A stretch of DNA of 64,000 nt from positions 62,001 to 126,000 of the forward strand of contig JAGVKQ010000023.1 of assembly GCA_020050435.1 (NCBI GenBank). Reading direction: 5' to 3'. The DNA comes from Candidatus Caenarcanales bacterium. GTDB lineage: Bacteria > Cyanobacteriota > Vampirovibrionia > 2-02-FULL-35-15. Both the position numbers and the translations under genes were made by a program. Positions within the stretch are counted from its first letter, which is position 1, and each line of letters starts with the position of its first letter. Shown here piece after piece: positions 3,211-60,941 of this stretch. The notes below the pieces were generated by a model. That model was not told where the DNA came from. It ran no database searches and saw only the letters and a list, made by a program, of their open reading frames with translations.

Positions 3211-4011
3211 TCAAATTGTTGAAATAAACTCACCCACTACTTGATTAAATCGTTCACTCTCTTCTAAAAATGGACAATGCCCACTTTTCTCAAATATAAC
3301 CAATTTTGACTCTGCAATAGATTCTTGCAAATGCTTAGCTGCGCCCAGAGATATAAGTTTCTCATCGCGACCAAAACAAAGTAGTGTAGGAATAGAAATT
3401 TTTGTCAAGACTGGTCTATAGTCACGAACAGATTGATCAAAAAAGACAGCACTAGCTATAGATTCTGGCATTAATATCATTTCATCATACATCCATTCAG
3501 TATCAGAAGTAGATGGTTTAGAAAAAAACATAGAAGGAATAAAGTTTTGAACTAATGTCTTCCTGTCAGTTTGCAAAGATGACATCATTCCACAGAGAGT
3601 AGAAAAATCAAGCACACCTTCTGGAAAATCTGGATATTTAAAATCAGATGCAGCTTCATCTACAATTACCGTAGCGCAAATATTTTCAGCACCAAACTGG
3701 TCTAAATAATCCCAAATTACAAATGCTCCCATGGACCAGCCAACAAGAACAACATCTTTTAGTTTTAGAGACGTAATTAAATTACGTAAATCCTGAGCAT
3801 AAACAGGCATAGTATGTCCAGTTTGGACATGGGTAGATTTACCATGTCCACGAAAATCAAGAGCAATGGCCCTATGAGTACGAGAAAAATATGGTAATTG
3901 GTTAGCAAAAAAACGACTGCTCATCCAGACCCCATGCAAGAAGATAATAGGTGAGCCTGTCCCCATTTCATCATAATGGAGGGTAGCACTAGGAATACTG
4001 AGATGAGGCAT
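3211..4011 (-). CDS. Alpha/beta-fold hydrolase
   Basis: The 266-aa product has the alpha/beta-hydrolase catalytic signature. The oxyanion segment is FLHGVW (24-29), the nucleophile is Ser93 in GWSMG, the acid is probably Asp216 in GRDE, and the base is His245 in SGHCPF. No signal peptide is seen, so it is cytoplasmic. The closest general class is the esterase/lactonase/haloperoxidase-like group; the substrate cannot be read from sequence. The 3' end abuts a fragment of an ABC-F gene, so this gene sits at a rearrangement junction. It is divergent from the cpaB-like gene, with a promoter region in 4012-4111. Confidence 0.85.
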   Translation of the reverse strand: MPHLSIPSATLHYDEMGTGSPIIFLHGVWMSSRFFANQLPYFSRTHRAIALDFRGHGKSTHVQTGHTMPVYAQDLRNLITSLKLKDVVLVGWSMGAFVIWDYLDQFGAENICATVIVDEAASDFKYPDFPEGVLDFSTLCGMMSSLQTDRKTLVQNFIPSMFFSKPSTSDTEWMYDEMILMPESIASAVFFDQSVRDYRPVLTKISIPTLLCFGRDEKLISLGAAKHLQESIAESKLVIFEKSGHCPFLEESERFNQVVGEFISTI

Positions 4012-4138
4012 AGTTTTTTTAGTATATCAAATGAAAAATATTATATAAGGAAAAAATTAAATATTATCTTGTCATCTGTTTTATTTAAGCCTAGTTTGCA
4101 TTCTCTCCTAGGTGGTAGATAAACATTATGGTAAGAAT

Positions 4139-5023
4139 ATGGAATTAGATAATGATACATTTGGGGACCCTCTCCCTACTATAAAAAAATCACCAAGGTT
4201 TAATCCTTTCTTTGGAATGGTTGCCATATCATTAGTTCTTGGATTAGCATCTGCTTTTGGAATCTGGGGATATTTAAGCAAGATTCAGAAAAAAGCACAA
4301 GAAGTAGCTCTTACTCGTAATGTGATTATTGCAGCTAAAGAAATAATGTCAGGCGCAAAAGTAACAGCAGAAGATTTAACCGTAAAAGCTCTTCCATTAA
4401 AAGAAGTACCAAATAATACTTCACCTAAAGCAGAAAGTTTTATTGGAAGAATACCCAAGACTACTATAGCTGCTGATGAAGTAATTTCTTTTGACAAACT
4501 ATTAGAAGAAAATTCACCAGGCGGCATTACATCTTTAATTCAAAAGGATCAAAGAGCAATTACTATTCGCGTAAACGATATTACTGGAGTTGGAGGTTTT
4601 ATTAACCCAGGAGACAGAGTAGATCTTTTATCTGTTGTAGATATTGGAAAAGGAGAATTGGTATCTAAAGCAATTTTACAAAATGTTCTTGTTATTGCTA
4701 TAGGAGAACTATTATTAGACCCCAATTCAAGAACAACTGTAGCTGCTCCAAAAGGAATAAATCAAGTAACATTTGCTTTAAATCTAAACGACTCGGAAAA
4801 ACTTAATCTTGCAGCAGCAAAAGGAGAAATTCGATTAGTATTAAAATCATTTAAAAACAAAGAAAAAGAAGACGACTTTGGTGCCCTAGCAAGTGATTTA
4901 TATGAAACTCCTGAAACTAAGACAAAGGTAGAAAACCCTAAAATTTATACTGCACCACCAGTTATAAAAAGAAAATCTGTAGAGATTATATTAGGAACAC
5001 AGAGAACAGCAGTTTATTTATAG
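4139..5023 (+). CDS. cpaB: Flp pilus assembly protein CpaB/RcpC-like
   Basis: The product has a short cytoplasmic N-terminus, one membrane helix (about residues 23-45), an SAF domain (VIIAAKEIMSGAKVTAEDL) and a RcpC/CpaB domain with AITIRVNDITGVGGFINPGDRVDLL, the family hallmark. CpaB is a periplasmic part of the Flp/Tad pilus machine. A GTG at 4112 would add nine residues; the ATG at 4139 is preferred but neither has a strong ribosome binding site. No other tad/cpa genes are in the window, so it is an orphan here. Ends face to face with the ABC-F gene, 16 bp apart. Confidence 0.85.
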   Translation: MELDNDTFGDPLPTIKKSPRFNPFFGMVAISLVLGLASAFGIWGYLSKIQKKAQEVALTRNVIIAAKEIMSGAKVTAEDLTVKALPLKEVPNNTSPKAESFIGRIPKTTIAADEVISFDKLLEENSPGGITSLIQKDQRAITIRVNDITGVGGFINPGDRVDLLSVVDIGKGELVSKAILQNVLVIAIGELLLDPNSRTTVAAPKGINQVTFALNLNDSEKLNLAAAKGEIRLVLKSFKNKEKEDDFGALASDLYETPETKTKVENPKIYTAPPVIKRKSVEIILGTQRTAVYL

Positions 5024-5039
5024 TATTTATATCTTTTAA

Positions 5040-6659
5040 TTATTTCATGCGTTGTAACTGAGCCTGAACATCTTTATTTTCAAGGTATTCATCAAAAGTC
5101 ATTTTTCTATCTACAACTCCATGTGGAGTAAATTCAATAATTCTATTTGAAACTGACTGTACTAAATTGTGATCATGAGAGTTTATAAGAACGACTCCCT
5201 TAAACTTTTCCAAGGCTGTATTCACAGCAACGATAGATTCTAAATCCAGATGATCAGTAGGACCATCAAGCATGACAACATTTGCTTTCGTAATCATCAT
5301 CTTAGAATACATAAGACGCATCTTCTCACCACCAGAGAGGACCTTCACCTTCTTTAAAGCATCTTCACCTGCAAATAACATACGCCCTAATAAACCACGA
5401 ACCTCTTCTAACGAAAGATCCTTTGAGAATTGCTGCAACCATCCAACAGCATCATAATTACACTCATCAAAGAAACTGCTATTGTCTTTAGGTAAATAAC
5501 TCATACTTGTAGTTTGCCCCCAAGCAAAAGTACCACTATCTGGTTTTGTAGTACCAGATAAAATGTCTAACAATGCAGTCTTAGCAAAATCATATTCACC
5601 AACAAAAGCAACTTTATCGCCAGGGTTAATTTCTAAATCAAACTTATTTATTACCTTTTCACCATTAATCGTTTTTGACAAACCTTTAACAGTTAAAACT
5701 TCATTCCCAATTTCTCTTTCACAATCAAAACTTATATAGGGATAACGTCTTGAAGAAGGTTTTATATCATCTAATGTGATTTTCTCAATTTGCTTTTTAC
5801 GAGAAGTTGCTTGCTTTGATTTTGAAGCATTTGCACTAAAACGTCTAACAAAGTCTTCCAACTCTTTTATTTGTTCTTCTTTTTTCTGGTTTGATTCAGA
5901 CAATAATCTTCTAGCCAATTCACTAGTTTCTTTCCAAAATTCATAATTTCCCGTAAATAGAGTAATTTGCTCATAATCAATATCAGCTATATGAGTACAA
6001 ACTTTATTTATAAAATGTCTATCATGCGAGACAACTATAACAGTAGATTTATAATTTAATAAAAAATCTTCTAACCAAGAAATAGTTTTTGTGTCGAGAT
6101 GGTTAGTAGGTTCATCTAATAACAATATTTCAGGGGTTCCAAAAAGTGCTTGAGCTAATAGTACTTTAACCTTCTCACTATCTAAAAGATCTTTCATCTT
6201 TTTTTCATGTAAATCATTAGCAATACCAAGCTCATTTAATAAAATAGCAGCTTCAGATTCAGCGCTCCAGCCATTAAATGCAGCAAACTCAGATTCTAAC
6301 TTTCCAATTAAAATGCCATCTTGATCAGTAAAGGTATCAGGATCCTTTGCATAAAGAACTTCTCTGGCTTCCATAACTTTATACAGCTCTTGATGTCCCA
6401 TAAAAACAGTTTTAAGTACAGTAAATTCATCATATTCAAAATGATCTTGTTTTAAAACAGCAACTCTATCGTTTGGACCTTTACCAACTGAACCAGTAGA
6501 AGGTGAGATTTCACCTGAAAGAATTTTAAGAAAAGTAGATTTCCCTGAACCATTAGCGCCTATAATCCCATAGCAATTATCATCAGAGAACCTGATATTA
6601 ACGTTTTCAAATAATTTTCTTCCACCAAAAGATAAAGAGAGGTTATAAGTTTCTATCAT
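5040..6659 (-). CDS. ybiT: ABC-F ATPase, YbiT-like, with degenerate second half
   Basis: This 539-aa protein has two nucleotide-binding domains, a linker with FVRRFSANASKSKQATSRKK and no membrane domain, as in ABC-F translation factors. Linker and overall pattern resemble YbiT most. NBD1 keeps Walker A (GANGSGKST, 34-42) and Walker B with LLLDEPTNHLD, but its signature loop reads MKDLLDSEKV instead of LSGGE. NBD2 keeps LSGGEK (441-446), yet its Walker A is GEYDFAKTA (354-362) and Walker B reads MLDGPTDHLD, with Gly in place of the catalytic Glu; the switch reads NSHDH. One composite ATP site (NBD1 Walker plus NBD2 signature) could work while the other looks dead. The likely role is at the ribosomal E site. 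Confidence 0.9.
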   Translation of the reverse strand: MIETYNLSLSFGGRKLFENVNIRFSDDNCYGIIGANGSGKSTFLKILSGEISPSTGSVGKGPNDRVAVLKQDHFEYDEFTVLKTVFMGHQELYKVMEAREVLYAKDPDTFTDQDGILIGKLESEFAAFNGWSAESEAAILLNELGIANDLHEKKMKDLLDSEKVKVLLAQALFGTPEILLLDEPTNHLDTKTISWLEDFLLNYKSTVIVVSHDRHFINKVCTHIADIDYEQITLFTGNYEFWKETSELARRLLSESNQKKEEQIKELEDFVRRFSANASKSKQATSRKKQIEKITLDDIKPSSRRYPYISFDCEREIGNEVLTVKGLSKTINGEKVINKFDLEINPGDKVAFVGEYDFAKTALLDILSGTTKPDSGTFAWGQTTSMSYLPKDNSSFFDECNYDAVGWLQQFSKDLSLEEVRGLLGRMLFAGEDALKKVKVLSGGEKMRLMYSKMMITKANVVMLDGPTDHLDLESIVAVNTALEKFKGVVLINSHDHNLVQSVSNRIIEFTPHGVVDRKMTFDEYLENKDVQAQLQRMK

Positions 6660-28818: not shown

Positions 28819-30606
28819 ATGAAAAAAGATTATCTCACAAAATCAGATTTTATAATTGCTGAATCCTGCCCTACAAAACTGTATTATAAAAAATTAGCGT
28901 ATCCAAGCATTCTAGAAGAAGATGATTATTTAAAGCTCTTAGCTGACGGTGGATATATAGTAGGTAAAATGGCTAGATTACTTTATCCTGATGGAATTGA
29001 AATAAAGATAGATGAAGGAATTGAGAAAGCTGTAGAAAAAACTAAAGAGCTATTAAAAAAAGAAAGTATAACTTTATTTGAACCTATTATTAATATTGAT
29101 GGGTTATTTGTAAAAATTGATATCTTAGTAAAAAAAAATAATACTTTTGATCTCATAGAAGTAAAATCTAAATCTTTTAATAGCGAAGAAGGTAAAGAAC
29201 TTTTTATTCGAAAGAAAAATGACTGGAAACCTTATTTAGAGGATGTAGCCTACCAATCATATGTTTTAAGCAAAGAGTATCCAAATACTAAAATTAATTC
29301 TTTTCTCATGCTGCCAGACAAAGCAAAGAGAACAAAAATAGAAGGACTAGCTTCCTGGTTTAAATTAAATAAAATTGGAAAGAGTTATGATGTTCAGTTT
29401 ACTGGAAACCTAGAGGAGCTCAGGAAAGATGACATTCTTACATGCGTACAGATCAATGAAGAAGTAGAAAAACTATTACAGACTGTTGATAAAAACTCAA
29501 AGCTATATTTAGAAAGCATTTTTCCAGAAGTAAAAAAAATCCCCACAGAAATTAGCAAAGACTGTAAAGAGTGTGAATATAAACACAAAGCAAATATTCA
29601 AAGAAATGGTTTTGCAGAATGCTGGGGGAATTTAGCATTTACGGAGCCACACATCTTTGATCTTTATTTTATGGGCACAATAGGTGGATTTAAAAATCCT
29701 ATAGTGAATACACTAATAAAAGAAGGGAAAGTTAATATTTATGACATACCCTTAAATAAATTATCTGGCATAAGAGGAGAACGGCAAAGAATCCAACTCT
29801 CAAAGACTAAAGCTAATGAAGAGTGGGTTTCAGATAAAATGAAATCTGTTTTAGATAAATTTCAATATCCTTTATATTTTATAGATTTTGAAACTTCCAG
29901 AATGGCTATTCCTTATCATAAGAATATGAGACCCTATGAACAGGTAACCTTTCAATGGAGTGTCCATAAGATTAATTCTCCAGGCTCTGAGCCTGAGCAC
30001 TTTGAGTGGATTAACTTAGAAGAGTCATTCCCTAATTTCAAATTTGCAAAGTCACTTATGAACTGCATAGGCGAAGATGGAACAGTTTTCATGTGGGCAA
30101 CTCATGAAAACACCACACTTAGAGATATCTTTGAACAAATGGAAATTTACAAATACGAAGATCCAGACTTAAGAAAATGGCTAAATGAATTAGTGAAATT
30201 CAGTAGTGATAGTCCAGGTAGATTAGTAGACATGAATGATTTAACCTTAAAAAACTATTTTCATCCAGAAATGAAAGGGAAGACTTCACTAAAATATGTT
30301 TTGCCTGCTATCTGGAAAAACAATTCTTATTTACATGAAATCCCTTGGTTAAAAGAATACTTGAAAAAAGAAGGAACAGAAACATTAGATCCATATGAAA
30401 CTCTCCAAGCCATAGAAATAGCAGGCAAAGCAGAATTAGTAAAAGAAGGAACAGGAGCTATGAGAGCCTACCAAGAACTGCTCTACGGCATAAACAAAGA
30501 CAATCCAGAGGCAAAACAACAATGGGCAAAAATACTACTTCAGTACTGCAAACTAGACACAATGGCAATGGTAATTGTTTGGTTGCATTGGAAGAATCAG
30601 TACTAG
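28819..30606 (+). CDS. DUF2779 protein: Cas4/RecB-like nuclease fused to a DEDD-type exonuclease
   Basis: The 595-aa protein has an N-terminal PD-(D/E)XK nuclease region (LTKSDFIIAESCPTKLYYKK; catalytic FDLIEVKSKS), with Cys15 plus CKEC...C (about residues 251-270) that could hold an iron-sulfur cluster as in Cas4/AddB. The C-terminal half starts YFIDFETSRMAIP and ends with YCKLDTMAMVIVW, the first and last acidic motifs of an RNase-H-like 3'-5' exonuclease. DUF2779 proteins are widespread and poorly studied; DNA repair or defence is likely. A tail fragment of a second copy lies at 53140. Confidence 0.88.
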   Translation: MKKDYLTKSDFIIAESCPTKLYYKKLAYPSILEEDDYLKLLADGGYIVGKMARLLYPDGIEIKIDEGIEKAVEKTKELLKKESITLFEPIINIDGLFVKIDILVKKNNTFDLIEVKSKSFNSEEGKELFIRKKNDWKPYLEDVAYQSYVLSKEYPNTKINSFLMLPDKAKRTKIEGLASWFKLNKIGKSYDVQFTGNLEELRKDDILTCVQINEEVEKLLQTVDKNSKLYLESIFPEVKKIPTEISKDCKECEYKHKANIQRNGFAECWGNLAFTEPHIFDLYFMGTIGGFKNPIVNTLIKEGKVNIYDIPLNKLSGIRGERQRIQLSKTKANEEWVSDKMKSVLDKFQYPLYFIDFETSRMAIPYHKNMRPYEQVTFQWSVHKINSPGSEPEHFEWINLEESFPNFKFAKSLMNCIGEDGTVFMWATHENTTLRDIFEQMEIYKYEDPDLRKWLNELVKFSSDSPGRLVDMNDLTLKNYFHPEMKGKTSLKYVLPAIWKNNSYLHEIPWLKEYLKKEGTETLDPYETLQAIEIAGKAELVKEGTGAMRAYQELLYGINKDNPEAKQQWAKILLQYCKLDTMAMVIVWLHWKNQY

Positions 30607-50488: not shown

Positions 50489-50746
50489 GTGAAGCTAATA
50501 AAATGGAATGAGCTAAAAAACGATAGATTAAAGAAATCTAGAGGCGTTTCATTTAATGAGATTATCAGGGGAAGACTAATTGCTGTTAAAAGACATCCAA
50601 ATAGAGAATACCAAGATATCATGCTGTTTGAATATAAGAACTATATTTGGGTAGTGCCTTTTGTTAAATCAAATGGGGAAATATTCTTGAAAACTCTTTT
50701 TCCAAGCAGGAAATATACAAAATTATTTAAGGAAGGTAAATTATGA
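50489..50746 (+). CDS. BrnT-like toxin
   Basis: The 85-aa basic protein starts with GTG at the expected transcription start. It has NDRLKKSRGVSFNEIIRG, the pattern of the BrnT/DUF4258-type ribonuclease toxins (R..K..VSF.E), and FLKTLFPSRKYTKLF at the end. The gene order toxin then antitoxin, with a 4-bp overlap, is that of BrnTA modules. It probably inhibits translation by RNA cleavage until bound by its partner. The family call is by pattern and context. Confidence 0.72.
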   Translation: MKLIKWNELKNDRLKKSRGVSFNEIIRGRLIAVKRHPNREYQDIMLFEYKNYIWVVPFVKSNGEIFLKTLFPSRKYTKLFKEGKL

Positions 50747-50991
50747 AGAAAATTAAGCTGAATAAAGAAGAACAACTAATTGAAAATGAGTTAAGCAGTT
50801 ATCTCAATGTAACGACTTCTGAATTTAATGAAATTGCTGATTCATTAAGAGCCAGAAAGAAAGATGCTGTAATGAATATAAGAATCAATAAGAAAGATCT
50901 TGAAGCAATTAAACAAATATCCAAAAAGCTTGGAGTAAAATATCAATCCTTTATTTCAGAACTAATTCATAGAGCAGCGAAGAGTGCTTAA
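50743..50991 (+). CDS. CopG/BrnA-like ribbon-helix-helix antitoxin
   Basis: The 82-aa protein ends in a ribbon-helix-helix DNA-binding region: MNIRINKKDLEAIKQISKKL then GVKYQSFISELIHRAA, typical of CopG/BrnA antitoxins. The N-terminal half (EEQLIENELSSYLN) is the likely toxin-binding part. It overlaps the toxin gene by 4 bp (ATGA) and should repress the promoter at 50455. Confidence 0.8.
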   Translation: MKKIKLNKEEQLIENELSSYLNVTTSEFNEIADSLRARKKDAVMNIRINKKDLEAIKQISKKLGVKYQSFISELIHRAAKSA

Positions 50992-51691: not shown

Positions 51692-52218
51692 GATTAGAGA
51701 ATTTTGATTATTCTTTACCAGGATGGTACTACGTTACAATCTGCACCAAAGACAGAATTAAATATTTTGGACAAATTAAAAACAATAAAATGATTTTTAA
51801 TAATTATGGACAGATTGTCTTAAATGTTTGGAATCAAATACCGGAATATTATAAAAATGTATCAATCGATGAATCGATCCTTATGCCTAATCATCTGCAT
51901 GGAATTATTGTAATTGGAAACAATGCAAAGGCAATAAAAAAATCGTCAATGCTGGTAGGTACCGAACATTGTTCGGTACCTACACATGACACAATAAAAC
52001 AAAAAAATAATTATGGGTTATTATCAAAAATCATCAAATCATTTAAAGAAATTACGGTTAAAACAATTCGACAAAATTATAATGATTTTGATTTTTCATG
52101 GCAAAAATCATTTTATGACCACATAATTAGAAAAGAATATGCCCTCTATAATATTCAAAAATATATTAAAGAAAATTATGGTTCTTTATTATTAAAACCA
52201 CCTGCAAAGCTTATATAG
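51664..52218 (+). CDS. REP-associated tyrosine transposase (RAYT, Y1/IS200-like)
   Basis: The 184-aa protein has the HUH motif MPNHLHGIIVI (His77, His79) and a C-terminal helix with candidate catalytic tyrosines in YDHIIRKEYALYNIQKYI. The N-terminal RLENFDYSLPGWYYVTICT is typical of RAYTs. Residues 98-107 (VGTEHCSVPT) are encoded by a perfect 29-bp palindrome that also occurs intergenically at 44252. RAYTs cut single-stranded palindromic REP hairpins, so the palindrome is the likely substrate. Its 3' end overlaps the convergent DUF6602 gene by 43 bp. Confidence 0.9.
   Translation: MPIRENKKLRLENFDYSLPGWYYVTICTKDRIKYFGQIKNNKMIFNNYGQIVLNVWNQIPEYYKNVSIDESILMPNHLHGIIVIGNNAKAIKKSSMLVGTEHCSVPTHDTIKQKNNYGLLSKIIKSFKEITVKTIRQNYNDFDFSWQKSFYDHIIRKEYALYNIQKYIKENYGSLLLKPPAKLI
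51941..52007. repeat. REP-like palindromic unit inside the transposase gene
   Basis: The same ~67-bp unit as at 44238-44304, with the 29-bp palindrome at 51955-51983 (centre T instead of A). It is in frame and part of the transposase coding sequence. Confidence 0.88.
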
Positions 52219-53036
52219 TCACTAAGTTCTGGATAAAGGATTGTTTTTCCTGTAGCCATTTGAAAAATATAATTAGCAAAACAGTTAAAGTGAGTATATT
52301 TATTTTGACCAGGAGTAAGAAAATTGTTTTTTAGGTTAACACTTCTAAAAACAGGATGCATTAAGTTTTTATGACCAAGAGTTGGATCATTGTAGTAATA
52401 AAGTAATAAACCATCTTCAATACTTAATATAAGATTATGTTTAAACCCATGATATAGATTTTGATCATAAAGTGTACTTATATCTGCAGCCAAGTTACTT
52501 AAATTAAAGTCAAATCTATGACATATTAGAAAAGTGAAGATTTGATCTTCGTTAAAATTAATAGGATCAAACGGTGAATCTCCCAGCTTAATACTTCTTT
52601 TTAAGAAAGAGGGATTCTTAATTTTTGTTCTATATTCTTTAAACTTACTTAATTTATTTATGGCATCTTTCAACGCCGATTTATCAACAATAGATTTAAC
52701 TTCACCAACTCCACAAACTGTCTCAATCGGGAAAAATCTTTGTCTGTTTTCAGATTGTATTAATGGAGTAACTTCAGGATCGTAAATTATAATATCAGCC
52801 TGAGTACTAACATTATTGTTTGCGTCTATTACAAAACCATTTGTAATATCTAAATTACCAGGGATAAAGAATCTAAGAAAATCTTTACATATTGCTTCGC
52901 GATAAACGCCATATTCTCCAGGATGCGCTAGTTTTCCATTTGAGTCATAGAAAAGACTTTTAGACGTTAAAAGAAAAGCCTGTTTAAATATTTCAACTTG
53001 CTCTATAAGTAAACTTTCTACAATTGTGCTTGCCAT
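52176..53036 (-). CDS. DUF6602 protein, PD-(D/E)XK-like nuclease candidate
   Basis: The 286-aa product (ATG 53036; a TTG upstream at 53054 is less likely) has HPGEYGVYREAICKDFLRFF, GNLDITNGFVIDANN, QADIIIYDPEVTPLI and FFPIETVCGVGEVKSIVDK. The D...ExK spacing (ADIIIYD / GEVKS) resembles a PD-(D/E)XK nuclease core, as suggested for DUF6602. Such proteins are common in defence islands. It ends convergently over the transposase gene. Nuclease activity is inferred. Confidence 0.78.
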   Translation of the reverse strand: MASTIVESLLIEQVEIFKQAFLLTSKSLFYDSNGKLAHPGEYGVYREAICKDFLRFFIPGNLDITNGFVIDANNNVSTQADIIIYDPEVTPLIQSENRQRFFPIETVCGVGEVKSIVDKSALKDAINKLSKFKEYRTKIKNPSFLKRSIKLGDSPFDPINFNEDQIFTFLICHRFDFNLSNLAADISTLYDQNLYHGFKHNLILSIEDGLLLYYYNDPTLGHKNLMHPVFRSVNLKNNFLTPGQNKYTHFNCFANYIFQMATGKTILYPELSDYISFAGGFNNKEP

Positions 53037-53139
53037 ACAATTAACGCCTTTCAAAAATAGTGGTTTTATTTTAACTCATTTTCTATATACATTTAGTATG
53101 ATTTTAAACCTGTAAAATGAAATTTAAAATTGTATAGTT

Positions 53140-53424: not shown

Positions 53425-53769
53425 ATGGACCTTAGAACTGATTTTATAAATGCAATTCACTCAATGAATAAACTGGAAATAACTTTCTTTTCAAAAGAAG
53501 ACAAGGGAAATTTAATAAGGCTTTGCGCACCTCTAGATATAGGACCTATGAGAAGAAATAATCAAATAATAAATAACGGGATAGAAATGTTTCACGTATG
53601 GGATTATTCAAGCGATAAGAAACCGCATCCTTTAGCATTACATTCTATTAAAATAAAAAGCTACAGGGTACTAAAAGACAAGTTTGATCCTGGAGATTTT
53701 GATTTTAGTGTTTTCAAGTACTCATTTTTTATTCCAAGAGACTGGGGAAAAGATACAGTATCAATCTAA
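53425..53769 (+). CDS. Conserved hypothetical protein
   Basis: AAAGGAG lies 5 nt upstream of the ATG. The 114-aa product has LEITFFSKEDKGNLIRLCAP and DIGPMRR then HVWDYSSDKKPHPLAL, a pattern (basic-residue pocket, HxWDY.SD) that recalls WYL-type ligand domains but is shorter. No DNA-binding domain is present. Unknown function; could be a single-domain regulator. Confidence 0.65.
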   Translation: MDLRTDFINAIHSMNKLEITFFSKEDKGNLIRLCAPLDIGPMRRNNQIINNGIEMFHVWDYSSDKKPHPLALHSIKIKSYRVLKDKFDPGDFDFSVFKYSFFIPRDWGKDTVSI

Positions 53770-53845: not shown

Positions 53846-54613
53846 ATGCAAGAAATATTAGAAAAAATTAAGCCTGGCGACATAATACTAACGGGCAAAA
53901 GAGGGTTTCTATTAAATTCATTACCAATAAGATTTTCTAATTTTTTCAAATCAGGAATAAAGAATAGATTATGGACACATTCGGCTATTTACATTGGTGA
54001 TGATTATATTATTGAGTCCATAATTTCACCAAGCAAAGGTGTTATCAAAAGGAAATTGTCCGATTCTTATTTAAAGAACGAATATGATATTTTAACTTTA
54101 AGAAGAATCCCATACACTAAATACAATTATTCAAAAGTAGTAAATTATTGTAAAAGTAGGGAAAAATCTGGCTATGATTTCAAAGCGTTAACTTATTTTT
54201 TCTTAATGGAGATAATCCCTTCACCATTAGTTTCTTTAATTTCTAATGATACCGTAGACCAACTATTAAACAATAGTAATAATTATTTCTGCTCAGAACT
54301 TGTAGCTGAAGCACTATTAATGTCGGGGGACTATTGTTTTGATAGAGCTCCTAATCAGATAAGACCTTTAGATTTTTTAAGAAATAGCTACTGTTTTCAA
54401 ATAATCCATGAAGATAAAGCCAAAGAACCAAACTGGAAAAATACAGTTTTTAACATAGGGTATTTCATAGGAATAATTATTTGGGGAATAATCTTAATAT
54501 CAATAGTATTAAGTATATTAATAATAATTGCTACTGCTTTCATATTTTTTTTGGGCAAAACAAAGAAAAAAGATGAGCCTAATATAGAGCCTAAAGTTCA
54601 AAATGAACTATAA
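53846..54613 (+). CDS. Permuted NlpC/P60-like hydrolase with C-terminal membrane helix
   Basis: The 255-aa product opens with ILEKIKPGDIILTGKRG and has the catalytic His in WTHSAIYIGDDYIIE and the Cys in NNYFCSELVAEALL, the circularly permuted order of YiiX/YebB-type papain-like amidases. A hydrophobic helix near the end (about 212-240) anchors it to the membrane, followed by a lysine-rich tail. These enzymes cleave amides in peptidoglycan or lipids. Confidence 0.82.
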   Translation: MQEILEKIKPGDIILTGKRGFLLNSLPIRFSNFFKSGIKNRLWTHSAIYIGDDYIIESIISPSKGVIKRKLSDSYLKNEYDILTLRRIPYTKYNYSKVVNYCKSREKSGYDFKALTYFFLMEIIPSPLVSLISNDTVDQLLNNSNNYFCSELVAEALLMSGDYCFDRAPNQIRPLDFLRNSYCFQIIHEDKAKEPNWKNTVFNIGYFIGIIIWGIILISIVLSILIIIATAFIFFLGKTKKKDEPNIEPKVQNEL

Positions 54614-54743: not shown

Positions 54744-57158
54744 TTAACTTCTTTGATAATCTTTATTTCCACACTCACACCTTAAATTTTTATACTTCTC
54801 AACATATTCAATCAACTTATTACAATCACTACATTTCAATAAGATTTCTAATTCAATAATCTTATCCCAAGCAGCGCTTAAATCATCAACATTAGTGCTT
54901 GTAGAATTATCATGAGATTCAAGATTCCCTAACACTGTTGTTGTAATAAGCTTTTCAAAAACTTCTTTATGAACGACTTTAGGATACTTTTTTAATTGAG
55001 AATTTACCGCTTGGCATAATTCATTAGGGGTTCTTTGTTCATTAAAGTCATTTAACCTAAAGGGGAGTTCAGCTTTAATTTTAAATGCTACTTCTTTAAG
55101 TAGTTTTTCAAGGTATATTCTTACATCATTCCCTAAACTTTCAGCAATTCTATTTTCTATGTTAGAAATTATTTTCTGTCTTAAGGACTTGGTTATTTCT
55201 TCAATTTTTGATCCATCATTATTATCCCATTTAATATTTTTAACAATCCATTTACCTTTTACCAATCTTGAAAAAATTTGAAACCAGCTTTCTTCATGTG
55301 TAAAAGCAATAATTTGGTGCTCTTTAGAATACTTATGAATTAATAACTCTGCAAATCTTTGCCTATGAGTTGAATCAAAGCTTGATATTACATCATCAAG
55401 AATAAACATTTTATTACATTTATTATACTTATTCATAGACATAAGAAAATATGCAATACCCAAACTATTAATTCTTGATTCATTAAAATATTTTTTTGGT
55501 GGGTAATCTTTATTACCCTGAAAATCATAATAAAGAGTTATACCATTAAGGTCACCAGTTTCTTCATCTTCCAGCAAACTCAAACTAACATTTTGTATCC
55601 TTCCATCTGTATACATTTCTTGATATAAATCATTAATATCTTTAGATAAATTTGTCAAGAAGTTAGTAAGACCTTCTTTTTGCTTTTTTAGAAATTCAGA
55701 ATAAGAGATTCTAAGTGATTCAACAAGCAGTTTATACACTTCTTGCTCTTTATTTAATTCTACTTTTCTTAGATATGCTATTTTTGCTCTTGTTAGTTTT
55801 TCTAATATATCAAATCTTAAATTATCTTTTTTTTGTTTTTTAATTGTTTCTATTCTAGAAGTCAACTCTTCAATAGTTGCTTTTAACTCTTTTTCATCAA
55901 TTTGTGGCTCATCAATAATTTTTATTTTTCCACACTCAAGCTTATTCTCCCTCAATAATTTTCCATATTTATTTAAATTATTCACCAAATCAGTTACGCT
56001 GATTTTCAATTCAGAATATGCTACTTCTGTTAAATGCTTCTCTCTTAATGTAAAAGTCCATTGTTCAATACAAAGATCTAACAGATTTTGAGTTTCTTTT
56101 TTAAGTTCTTTATTTTTATCTACTTCTTCTTTCTGCTTTTTAAGCTTATCCATTCTTTCGCTAATTTCAGACAGTAACTCATCCTTATTCTTATTTTGTA
56201 AACATAAAGGACATTCATCCTCATCAACAAATCCATTCCTTAAAAGACTTACACCCGCATTTAAAAGAAGTTCAAATTCTTGATTTTTCAATGTCTCAAT
56301 ATTTTCAGAAATAGATTTATAGTGTTCTATATATTTACTATGAAGTTCTTTTAAGTTGGATAGCTGAGGAATTAATGCAGCCAATTGGTCCTTAATTCTA
56401 ATTAAAAAATTAATTTCTTCAGTAATTTTTCCATCTTCAGCTTGTTTTATTAAATCAATAGTTTTATTTACATCATTTAAAGATTCTAATTTTCTTATTG
56501 GAAGTGGTGAAATCAATTCATTTATAGCATTAATAAACTCTACTTCAGAATTGACATTTTGCTTTAGTGTTTCCAACAAATATCCTTGCTCTCTACTTTT
56601 TGCATCTTCAAATGATTTCGCTTCCATTTCTGATTTTAACTTATTCAAGGAAGCTCTGAGTTTATCTTTTCTATCCGTTACCACATTAAAACCAATAATT
56701 TTCGACAAACTTTCAAGCTTTTCAGATTTTTTCCCTATAACAAATCTAGCGAGTTCTTGATTTCGCAACATTATATGTTCATTTTTTCTTGTTGCTTCTA
56801 AGTAATTTTTAAACTCTTGAGATTCGTTAGAAAAAACTGTATCTAGATTCCCTCTATTGTTGGTTACAATTGATTTTCTACAATTCAGCTTATTATCAGA
56901 GAATTCAATCTCGACAAAAGCTTCTTCAGAAGGAGCCAAATTAACATTCCGAAGAGCTGGAATTCCACCTCGACCAATTTCTTCATTAGACAAATGTTCA
57001 ACCGAACCTTTGTAAAACCATTCTATTGCGTCTGTTATACTGCTTTTTCCACTTCCATTATCGCCATAAATCAGTATTGATTCCCCGTCCAAGGGGAGTT
57101 CAATTTCTTTTTTAATTCCTCTTATTCCTTTGATATGTAATTTTTTAATTTTCGCCAC
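54744..57158 (-). CDS. SMC/RecN-like AAA ATPase with zinc hook
   Basis: The 804-aa protein has an N-terminal Walker A (GDNGSGKSS, 32-40) and signature-like region, two long coiled-coil arms, a CPLC zinc-hook-like motif (DEDECPLCLQNK) between them, and a C-terminal half with FNESRINSLGIAYFL and Walker B MFILDDVISSFD, then QIIAFTHEESWF. The end carries CSDC and CEC, a zinc ribbon. It fits the Rad50/SMC-like ATPases of bacterial defence. The upstream small gene overlaps it by 14 bp; a GIY-YIG nuclease gene precedes that. It probably senses or holds DNA for its nuclease partner. Confidence 0.88.
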   Translation of the reverse strand: MAKIKKLHIKGIRGIKKEIELPLDGESILIYGDNGSGKSSITDAIEWFYKGSVEHLSNEEIGRGGIPALRNVNLAPSEEAFVEIEFSDNKLNCRKSIVTNNRGNLDTVFSNESQEFKNYLEATRKNEHIMLRNQELARFVIGKKSEKLESLSKIIGFNVVTDRKDKLRASLNKLKSEMEAKSFEDAKSREQGYLLETLKQNVNSEVEFINAINELISPLPIRKLESLNDVNKTIDLIKQAEDGKITEEINFLIRIKDQLAALIPQLSNLKELHSKYIEHYKSISENIETLKNQEFELLLNAGVSLLRNGFVDEDECPLCLQNKNKDELLSEISERMDKLKKQKEEVDKNKELKKETQNLLDLCIEQWTFTLREKHLTEVAYSELKISVTDLVNNLNKYGKLLRENKLECGKIKIIDEPQIDEKELKATIEELTSRIETIKKQKKDNLRFDILEKLTRAKIAYLRKVELNKEQEVYKLLVESLRISYSEFLKKQKEGLTNFLTNLSKDINDLYQEMYTDGRIQNVSLSLLEDEETGDLNGITLYYDFQGNKDYPPKKYFNESRINSLGIAYFLMSMNKYNKCNKMFILDDVISSFDSTHRQRFAELLIHKYSKEHQIIAFTHEESWFQIFSRLVKGKWIVKNIKWDNNDGSKIEEITKSLRQKIISNIENRIAESLGNDVRIYLEKLLKEVAFKIKAELPFRLNDFNEQRTPNELCQAVNSQLKKYPKVVHKEVFEKLITTTVLGNLESHDNSTSTNVDDLSAAWDKIIELEILLKCSDCNKLIEYVEKYKNLRCECGNKDYQRS

Positions 57159-57375
57159 TTGCTAATTTTTCCTTTTTTAATTCAGCCAGAGCATTATAAA
57201 TCTTTGTATCAGAAAAAGTGTTTTCCTTATGTAATCGCAAAAGAATATCTGCTATCTCAGGGTCTACTCCTTCAACAGATTTTAAATTAGAAAAAAAGTC
57301 ATCTACTATTTTTTGCCCACTAATTTCTAATTCTTCCTCTATTTGCTCTCTTTTATTAGTTATTATTGAACTCAT
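57145..57375 (-). CDS. Small helical protein linked to SMC-like ATPase
   Basis: The 76-aa product is charged and helical (REQIEEELEISGQKIVDDFF, ALAELKKEKLASGEN). It has no known domain. It overlaps the ATPase gene by 14 bp and follows the GIY-YIG gene by 21 bp, so the three are likely translated from one mRNA and could form a complex. It might be a regulator or adaptor of the nuclease and ATPase. Confidence 0.7.
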   Translation of the reverse strand: MSSIITNKREQIEEELEISGQKIVDDFFSNLKSVEGVDPEIADILLRLHKENTFSDTKIYNALAELKKEKLASGEN

Positions 57376-57396
57376 ATTTTTCTCTTTTCTTCCTTA

Positions 57397-57849
57397 TTAC
57401 TCAAAGTATTGCCAATTAATTAACAGCTTTAAATTTACATCAAAGTTTAAGACTTCAAAGCCTGACTTATTATTGCATATAGGATAAACGCCATAATTTT
57501 GTACAAAATCTAAAATAAAATAACTTTCAAGATCTTCAATTCTATACTTCCAAATATTTTTAAGCATTTCAAAGTTAAGGTATGTAAAATAAGTATTATC
57601 AATCGATCTATAATTTTTAATCCCCATATTCCCTGAAGTCCCATCATAATGGCTACAGATTCTACTTCCTATACTGTTAGTTCTCATTTCACTCATACCA
57701 ATGTAAATCAATTTTGAGCTCTTTGACGGATAATTAATAGACTTACTCTGCAAAAAAATGAAATACAAACCAACCATTCCTTGCAAACTTTGAAAATTGT
57801 TAGGCTCAAATTTTGCTGGTGAATCAAAGTTTATTTTATACGTATTCAT
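57397..57849 (-). CDS. GIY-YIG nuclease-like protein
   Basis: The product (150 aa from ATG 57849; a TTG at 57873 is possible) shows GIY-YIG landmarks: MVGLYFIFL (GIY), KLIYIGMSE (YIG), the catalytic Arg in GSRICSHYDG, and the metal Glu in IEDLESYFILDFVQ followed by GVYPICNNK. Motif order and spacing match small single-domain GIY-YIG endonucleases. It is first in the operon with the 76-aa and SMC-like ATPase genes. It probably cuts DNA under ATPase control. Confidence 0.78.
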   Translation of the reverse strand: MNTYKINFDSPAKFEPNNFQSLQGMVGLYFIFLQSKSINYPSKSSKLIYIGMSEMRTNSIGSRICSHYDGTSGNMGIKNYRSIDNTYFTYLNFEMLKNIWKYRIEDLESYFILDFVQNYGVYPICNNKSGFEVLNFDVNLKLLINWQYFE

Positions 57850-59872: not shown

Positions 59873-60262
59873 TTATTTTTCACTCTTATCTCTTAAACTG
59901 TTTAAAAGCTTAATATGCTTATTTTTAATTCTTTCATATATTTCTTTAGCTAAATCTTGCTTATATGTATGAGAGGTTAGATTTCTATCCTCAAGCATAT
60001 CTATCCAACCTTGACCGTCTTCAAATAGTTTTTCTCTAAAAGCTTCTTTAATAGTTATTTTTGGAGAATTTGTGCTAACCCCTCTTTCTTGAAGTATTGC
60101 CCTTAAAAGTTTCCATGCTAATTCAAAAGTAAATTCAAATCTTTGAATAGTACCATCAAGAATAGTAGAACTCTTTGATAGATCCTCTTTTAATGATTCA
60201 TTAAGTCTATTTAATGCTTCTTTATAATCTATAAGCAATTCTTTTATTTTACTTTGATTCAT
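59873..60262 (-). CDS. HEPN-domain protein (HI0074 family)
   Basis: The 129-aa helical protein belongs to the HI0074/nucleotidyltransferase substrate-binding family of HEPN domains: RFEFTFELAWKLLRAILQER and DMLEDRNLTSHTYKQ. RNLTSH is the R-x4-H motif of HEPN ribonucleases. HEPN/MNT pairs are type VII toxin-antitoxin modules, where MNT AMPylates the HEPN toxin. It overlaps the MNT frame by 14 bp. Confidence 0.88.
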   Translation of the reverse strand: MNQSKIKELLIDYKEALNRLNESLKEDLSKSSTILDGTIQRFEFTFELAWKLLRAILQERGVSTNSPKITIKEAFREKLFEDGQGWIDMLEDRNLTSHTYKQDLAKEIYERIKNKHIKLLNSLRDKSEK

Positions 60263-60660: not shown

Positions 60661-60671
60661 AAACTGGCGGG
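60661..60671. repeat. Putative attachment site within tRNA-Asp 3' end
   Basis: AACTGGCGGGG includes the last acceptor-stem bases, discriminator and CCA of tRNA-Asp and two bases beyond. It is the direct repeat partner of 50298-50308. Confidence 0.45.
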
Positions 60672-60740
60672 GCCGACGAGACTCGAACTCGCGACCTCAT
60701 GCGTGACAGGCATGCGTTCTAACCAACTGAACTACGACCC
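60664..60740 (-). tRNA. trnD: tRNA-Asp (GTC anticodon)
   Basis: Read on the minus strand the gene begins GGGGTCGTAGTTCAG. The acceptor stem GGGGTCG/CGGCCCC pairs with one wobble, the D-arm is TCAGTTGGTTAGA, the anticodon loop CTGTCAC gives GTC, and the T arm has GTTCGAGTC. The discriminator G and the encoded CCA end at 60664. Upstream (60741-60770) are short ATAAGTTG repeats. Its 3' end equals the 11-nt repeat at 50298. Confidence 0.97.
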
Positions 60741-60941
60741 CGTATAAGTTGCAAGTTATAAGTTGTAAGTCTCAAGGAGAACTTAAAGCTTTAAATTGCA
60801 CTGGTAAATTTTACCAAAGTAATATCAACGTCACTATTTTTTTAATCAGGATTCGGAAAGGCAAGGATTATTATAACTTAATTGATATTAGATAGAAGAA
60901 ATTTAAGCCAAATACCCATAATGAAATGTAATAACAATAGC

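Follow-up and report, generated by a model that had tools for sequence, protein, structure and literature searches.

We analysed a 64,000-nt stretch of contig JAGVKQ010000023.1 from Candidatus Caenarcanales bacterium, referred to here as the window, and describe three of its minus-strand genes which encode, in this order, a GIY-YIG nuclease, a 76-amino acid (aa) protein and an ATPase of the Rad50/SMC type. Among the immune systems that pair an ATPase with a nuclease against phages and plasmids, this trio looks like a variant that has apparently not been described. Our preferred reading, to which we give a probability of about 0.6, is a mobile immune cassette in which a DNA-sensing ATPase complex would unleash or aim a non-specific GIY-YIG nuclease against invading DNA. 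We infer the defence role from the architecture, mobility and neighbours of the genes. The reading is supported by adjacency of the three genes at 4/4 loci, including one divergent arrangement, by invariant motifs, by the grouping of the ATPases in a single clade, by the island context, patchy distribution and low GC content of the operon, by the SbcD that the genome has besides, and by nuclease-less relatives that lie within BREX-5 or near further conflict genes.

The three genes form a compact operon that recurs in other genomes

An earlier reading made from the letters of the window only (the sequence-only reading) had reported three overlapping or nearly touching open reading frames (ORFs) at 54744-57849, and they are indeed found there (Table 1). 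The gap between the nuclease gene and the small gene is 21 bp, and the small gene overlaps the ATPase gene by 14 bp. Both downstream genes are preceded by purine-rich ribosome-binding sites, and an alternative TTG start is possible for the nuclease ORF, 24 bp upstream of its ATG.

The operon is more than a chance arrangement, as three further genomes carry these genes side by side. A genome of the same family as that of the window carries a trio (L003/L013) whose nuclease and ATPase are 61% and 35% identical to the window proteins, the corresponding values being 61% and 37% for a Bacteroidetes metagenome-assembled genome (L001), and 39% and 26% for a plasmid of Aliiroseovarius crassostreae (L004). 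On this plasmid the small gene and the ATPase gene, which overlap, adjoin a nuclease gene in divergent orientation, and TniA/TniB/TniQ genes lie alongside; no convincing terminal repeats, as expected of transposon ends, were found around this copy. All four known GIY-YIG homologues (4/4, in three phyla) thus adjoin the small gene and the ATPase gene, and this conserved linkage strengthens the earlier suspicion that the genes belong to one system. Whole-genome searches covered one phylum, and among its 386 genomes the nuclease and the ATPase are present in exactly the same two. A further GIY-YIG match, in genome G162, was discarded as a false positive because no GIY-YIG gene lies at that place.

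Table 1. Positions of the features discussed in the text (window coordinates unless a locus is given)
Feature	Position	Strand	Details
GIY-YIG nuclease ORF	57397-57849	-	ATG start, 150 aa
GLY motif	57763-57771	-	residues 27-29 of GIY-YIG protein
YIG motif	57697-57705	-	residues 49-51 of GIY-YIG protein
R63/H67	57649-57663	-	catalytic residues of GIY-YIG protein
E108	57526-57528	-	catalytic residue of GIY-YIG protein
N126	57472-57474	-	catalytic residue of GIY-YIG protein
76-aa protein ORF	57145-57375	-	ATG start, AAGGAAGAAAAG ribosome-binding site
Rad50/SMC-type coiled-coil ABC ATPase ORF	54744-57158	-	GTG start, 804 aa, AAGGA upstream
Walker A GDNGSGKS	57042-57065	-	ATPase residues 32-39
Zinc-hook motif CPLC, Rad50-type	56202-56213	-	ATPase residues 316-319
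Walker B ILDDVISSFD region	55374-55406	-	ATPase residues 585-595
C-terminal helical domain with conserved N..H motif, ending in zinc ribbon	54747-55253	-	ATPase residues 636-804
C-terminal zinc ribbon CxxC...CxC	54771-54833	-	C776, C779, C794, C796
CopG-type antitoxin (1e-6) after 85-aa BrnT-like ORF (by eye)	50489-50991	+	probable toxin-antitoxin pair
DUF6602 protein	52176-53054	-	DUF6602 1.7e-25; PADLOC NucC-type nuclease models 3.8e-22
YaeF/YiiX-type permuted papain-like (C92) protein	53846-54613	+	C-terminal hydrophobic segment; adjoins operon
HepT-like/nucleotidyltransferase-substrate-binding gene	59873-60262	-	
tRNA-Asp gene	60665-60741	-	near right edge of low-GC stretch, which lies on the tRNA 3' side
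Control Lamassu-type three-gene locus (effector, middle gene, LmuB)	L108:1492-4899		related genome; middle gene within 166-182 aa
Control Lamassu-type three-gene locus (effector, middle gene, LmuB)	L110:1-3336		related genome; middle gene within 166-182 aa

The nuclease is a bare GIY-YIG core

The first gene of the operon is assigned to the GIY-YIG family on the strength of the Pfam scores of its relatives, a profile alignment and the annotation of its plasmid orthologue. The window protein itself matched zero Pfam models, even at E = 1. One nuclease relative matches GIY_YIG_2 (PF20815) at 3.6e-4, with 21.0 bits against a curated cut-off of 22.4, the cut-off for GIY-YIG families being a score threshold and not a biochemical defining feature, and one matches the Pfam GIY-YIG model (PF01541) at 0.0064. 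Alignment by hhalign to a cyanobacterial protein that lies over the PF20815 cut-off gave a probability of 91% (P 1e-6) with the GLY, YIG, R, H, E and N columns aligned, and the Aliiroseovarius plasmid orthologue is annotated as 'GIY-YIG nuclease family protein'. Across the homologues (n = 4; 39-61% identity), Y29, Y49-I50-G51, R63, H67, E108 and N126 are invariant, in an order that fits the GIY-YIG catalytic set.

The protein consists of the catalytic core alone, without a separate DNA-binding or docking domain. It shares this core, with its R..H, E and N residues, with the GIY_YIG_2 nucleases, from which the window family differs by its sub-cut-off scores, the lack of a cognate methyltransferase and its tie to an ATPase.

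The ATPase combines a Rad50-type hook with a C-terminal zinc ribbon

By its sequence features, the 804-aa protein is a Rad50/SMC-type ABC ATPase, with heads split by a coiled coil that bears an apical zinc hook. Its Pfam SMC_N match (2e-11) is above the curated cut-off, and its best PDB profile matches are SMC and Rad50 heads. The CPLC hook and the C-terminal zinc ribbon that the sequence-only reading had pointed out are both in place (Table 1). Among 21 ATPase relatives, the Walker A, CPLC, signature, Walker B and H-loop (THE) motifs are invariant or nearly so; C316, P317 and C319 of the hook are kept in 21/21, and so are D588 and D589 of Walker B. The helical domain with the N..H motif, downstream of the H-loop, is retained in 18 of these 21. 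The zinc ribbon occurs in 13/15 ATPases from two-gene relatives that lack the nuclease (dyads, see below) and in those of L013 and L004, and the L001 ATPase is cut by the contig end. We also considered the C-terminal domain as an active HEPN RNase and rejected this candidate, as a DUF4145 match was marginal (E 0.64) and the catalytic R-x4-6-H motif was not seen.

A Rad50-like hook and heads, whose best structural matches are SMC and Rad50, next to a nuclease gene also recall the plan of SbcCD, in which a zinc-hook ABC ATPase works with a nuclease. The trio could on these grounds be a complex for repair or genome maintenance, i.e. an analogue of Mre11-Rad50 with GIY-YIG replacing Mre11, a reading that we regard as improbable: the genes are found in 2/386 genomes of the phylum and on a plasmid beside Tni genes, they lie in islands with restriction-modification (R-M) and toxin-antitoxin genes, and the host genome already carries its own SbcD (over the curated cut-off). 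Moreover, the trio departs from Rad50-Mre11 and SbcCD in its short coiled coils, its C-terminal zinc ribbon and its mobile and patchy occurrence, in addition to the different nuclease.

The small protein and the ATPase belong to a wider two-gene family

The 76-aa protein is probably helical and had no significant match in the databases searched; orthologues of 63-71 aa occupy the same place at the three other trio loci. Plasmid relatives of the ATPase, with 17-24% identity, were found in Alphaproteobacteria, Bacteroidota and haloarchaea. All have the zinc hook, and a small gene abuts or overlaps the start of the ATPase gene. An ORF of 45-95 aa ending <=30 bp from the ATPase start was present in 15/15 annotated GIY-less plasmid relatives versus 24/41 control genes. 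Due to the fact that 24 of 41 unrelated genes pass as well, a bare upstream small ORF is weak evidence for a dyad, and the real evidence comes from a hidden Markov model (HMM): when it was built from small proteins of GIY-less dyads only, all four GIY-linked small proteins beat all 1000 shuffles each. An apparent fusion of small protein and ATPase in Rhizobium (L006), suggested by eye, was rejected, since its HMM score fell below the shuffles and its ATPase sits on a very long branch and has no zinc ribbon.

No annotated dyad adjoins a gene with a GIY-YIG annotation. In a tree of the ATPases, the four that are linked to GIY-YIG make up a single clade (support 100/99), apart from the dyad ATPases and with a single change of state; with a clade this small, gain or loss of the nuclease is read no further than that. 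The dyads thus resemble the window trio in their homologous small protein and in an ATPase with a CPxC hook and a zinc ribbon, and they differ from it in lacking a GIY-YIG gene, in ATPase identity and in clade. Because these distant ATPase relatives keep the small protein and lack the nuclease, the trio is a nuclease-armed branch of a wider small protein plus ATPase module.

The dyads adjoin varied genes. In Halorhabdus (L005) the dyad, at 3733-6397, is flanked by pglX and pglZ in a haloarchaeal BREX-5 operon, and in Bradyrhizobium (L019) it lies 34 bp downstream of a DUF262 gene with HipA nearby. Other dyads are near AbiE and abortive-infection genes (L009) or near a DarT-like gene and a RES-family gene (L018). 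It is conceivable, although we hold it with some doubt, that the dyad is an unrecognised portable DNA-sensing immunity module, spread over archaea and several bacterial phyla and used with varied partners (GIY-YIG here, BREX-5 in Halorhabdus, DUF262 in Bradyrhizobium), and that the branch of the window gained its own nuclease. On Hymenobacter plasmids (L017:5910-8776 and L024:5877-8776) a ~640-aa protein, without Pfam match in L017, directly follows the dyad ATPase, and the second gene after this ATPase in L024 is annotated as an MBL-fold hydrolase; the Hymenobacter dyads possibly have a different partner set.

These data raise a serious rival, in which the small protein and the ATPase would be a self-sufficient defence unit, to whose effector or sensor the C-terminal domain of the ATPase would contribute, and GIY-YIG would be an optional auxiliary. 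The small ORFs upstream of the ATPase in all 15 annotated GIY-less plasmid relatives, with the weak control noted above, the HMM homology of the small proteins, the conserved C-terminal domain and the unrelated partners of the dyads all speak for it. We nevertheless consider it unlikely. Of the three proteins GIY-YIG is the most conserved, at 61% where the ATPase has 35-37% and the small protein about 40%, and all sampled members of its clade carry it, so that within this clade it looks integral. Small size, adjacency and the toxin-antitoxin-rich surroundings might also suggest a unit of the toxin-antitoxin kind, in which GIY-YIG would be the toxin and the 76-aa protein its antitoxin. This is very improbable, given that the small gene tracks the ATPase and not the nuclease in the wider family, and that the L004 small gene overlaps the ATPase gene and is transcribed away from that of the nuclease.

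Comparison with known defence systems

The set had not been matched to a named system from the letters of the window, and PADLOC did not change this: it returned nothing for the nuclease and the small protein, and generic SMC-like scores for the ATPase. The top PADLOC hits of the window ATPase include LmuB models, at 3.8e-25, which brings up a divergent Lamassu (ABC-3C) system with GIY-YIG as LmuA, the 76-aa protein as LmuC and the ATPase as LmuB. The gene order of effector, small gene and SMC-like gene is that of Lamassu, and LmuB can likewise carry a CPxC hook (PMC10586767). With the LmuB profile, calibrated on 60 genomes, the window ATPase nevertheless scored 80.8 bits, within the range of housekeeping SMC proteins of ~1200 aa in related genomes (56-84), versus 304 and 275 for the two strongest LmuB-type hits, and in several dyads the mad3 model scores as high as LmuB. 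A control Lamassu-type locus (L108) encodes a 328-aa effector, a 182-aa middle protein and a 637-aa LmuB whose Walker B reads D-Q and which lacks a C-terminal zinc ribbon, as against 150 aa, 76 aa and 804 aa, D-D and a zinc ribbon in the window. As the LmuB score lies in the SMC range and the Walker B motif, size and C-terminus differ, Lamassu membership was rejected, and we take it as quite improbable that the trio is a divergent form.

The likeness to Lamassu, ABC-3C and DdmABC lies in the plan, i.e. an effector, a small middle gene and a coiled-coil ABC ATPase with a zinc hook in many members, and the window ATPase is set apart by its greater length, its Walker B motif (in LmuB generally changed from E to Q) and its additional zinc-ribbon domain. 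The middle gene has the same position as LmuC but at most half the length seen in the controls (Table 1). LmuA comprises an effector and a C-terminal docking domain, whereas the window effector is the GIY-YIG core only, and a bare GIY-YIG domain is absent from the Lamassu effector list of PMC10586767.

A second comparison concerns the CxC-clade ABC ATPase/DndE systems (PbeABCD) and DndDE, which likewise combine a coiled-coil ABC ATPase with a small partner and recruited nucleases; URI/GIY-YIG nucleases have been reported in DndDE neighbourhoods (PMC10853773). The window trio differs in that its hook is CPLC and not CxC, and in the lack of a DndE-like gene, modification genes and an HKD-helicase; no modification or Dnd-type gene was matched among the window neighbours searched. 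PbeC/DndD models score weakly, and in some ATPase relatives only. No paper that we found in the literature links GIY-YIG to a defence ATPase of the Rad50/SMC-like kind in one operon, and the ATPase clade may have been catalogued earlier.

Genomic surroundings

The operon lies in a stretch (50-58 kb) with 26-31% GC, compared with 33-36% for 44-50 kb. This low-GC stretch holds a NucC-like DUF6602 nuclease, a CopG-type antitoxin and a RhuM gene, with a HepT-type gene just beyond, in agreement with the island of nucleases and toxin-antitoxin genes that had been proposed earlier. A type III R-M system and HepT/MNT pairs lie beside the L013 trio. The DUF6602/NucC-like gene of the window stands alone, with no obvious CD-NTase adjoining, and no partner nucleotidyltransferase gene was found adjoining the HepT-like gene, the HepT/MNT-type pairs near the L013 copy being complete. 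No attachment (att)-type repeat of the tRNA-Asp end was found elsewhere in the window.

Small proteins near both operon copies, at 53425-53769 (+) and L013:11943-12245, show weak mutual likeness (26% identity, E 4e-5) and possibly, as judged by eye only, a WYL-like fold. The L013 gene, divergent from that for GIY-YIG, is followed by a DUF2779 gene (L013:12242-14041), which thus stands beside the L013 operon; in the window a DUF2779 protein is encoded at 28819-30606 (+), 24 kb from the operon, and DUF2779 may belong to the mobile gene pool of the operon. Photosystem genes are present in some genomes of the phylum and absent from the class of the window as sampled, and the host is therefore probably a non-photosynthetic relative of cyanobacteria.

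Proposed mechanism and its weight

In the cassette reading, the ATPase would dimerise via its zinc hook, and the 76-aa protein would be its obligate partner, bound probably near the heads. The complex would scan DNA for a feature of the invader, which might be a DNA end, either free or blocked by protein, a stalled fork or a hairpin. ATP-bound engagement would license or recruit the GIY-YIG protein as a bare catalytic domain, and DNA would then be cut. Complex formation, DNA sensing and the order of events are given here as we infer them. The cut could fall on the invader, in the style of Mre11-Rad50 or Wadjet, or on all DNA, in the abortive style of Lamassu, and as no modification gene protects the host we lean slightly to abortive or indiscriminate cutting. 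Because no methyltransferase is linked, discrimination would have to lie in the ATPase complex.

Several points weigh against this reading. The ATPase plus small protein module most often lacks a nuclease, which may thus be accessory, and linkage statistics are thin, since only four GIY-YIG loci are known. Searches of phage records gave no match for either the nuclease or the ATPase, and viral contigs gave none for the nuclease; in 2.9 million viral contigs searched with peptide patterns there was no clear member of the family, the 80 matching loci agreeing mostly at the P-loop alone, and there is consequently no sign of interplay with phages. AlphaFold predictions from two-sequence alignments were uninterpretable, both for the C-terminal region of the ATPase and for the GIY-YIG protein (mean pLDDT, the predicted local distance difference test, 31). 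As to the anti-phage pattern of a nuclease with a DNA-sensing ATPase that the sequence-only reading had drawn, the conserved linkage and the island context fit defence, and what it overlooked is that the ATPase and small protein mostly occur without a nuclease.

If the cassette reading is true, the immune ATPases of the SMC/Rad50 type would gain a branch armed with GIY-YIG, and attention would turn to a broader sensor module of two genes, as yet without a name, that occurs within BREX-5 and next to conflict genes of other kinds. The trio would then offer a compact and clean case, with a sensor ATPase, a 76-aa linker and a 150-aa nuclease without targeting domain, in which to ask how foreign DNA is recognised by coiled-coil ATPases and how these turn on a nuclease.

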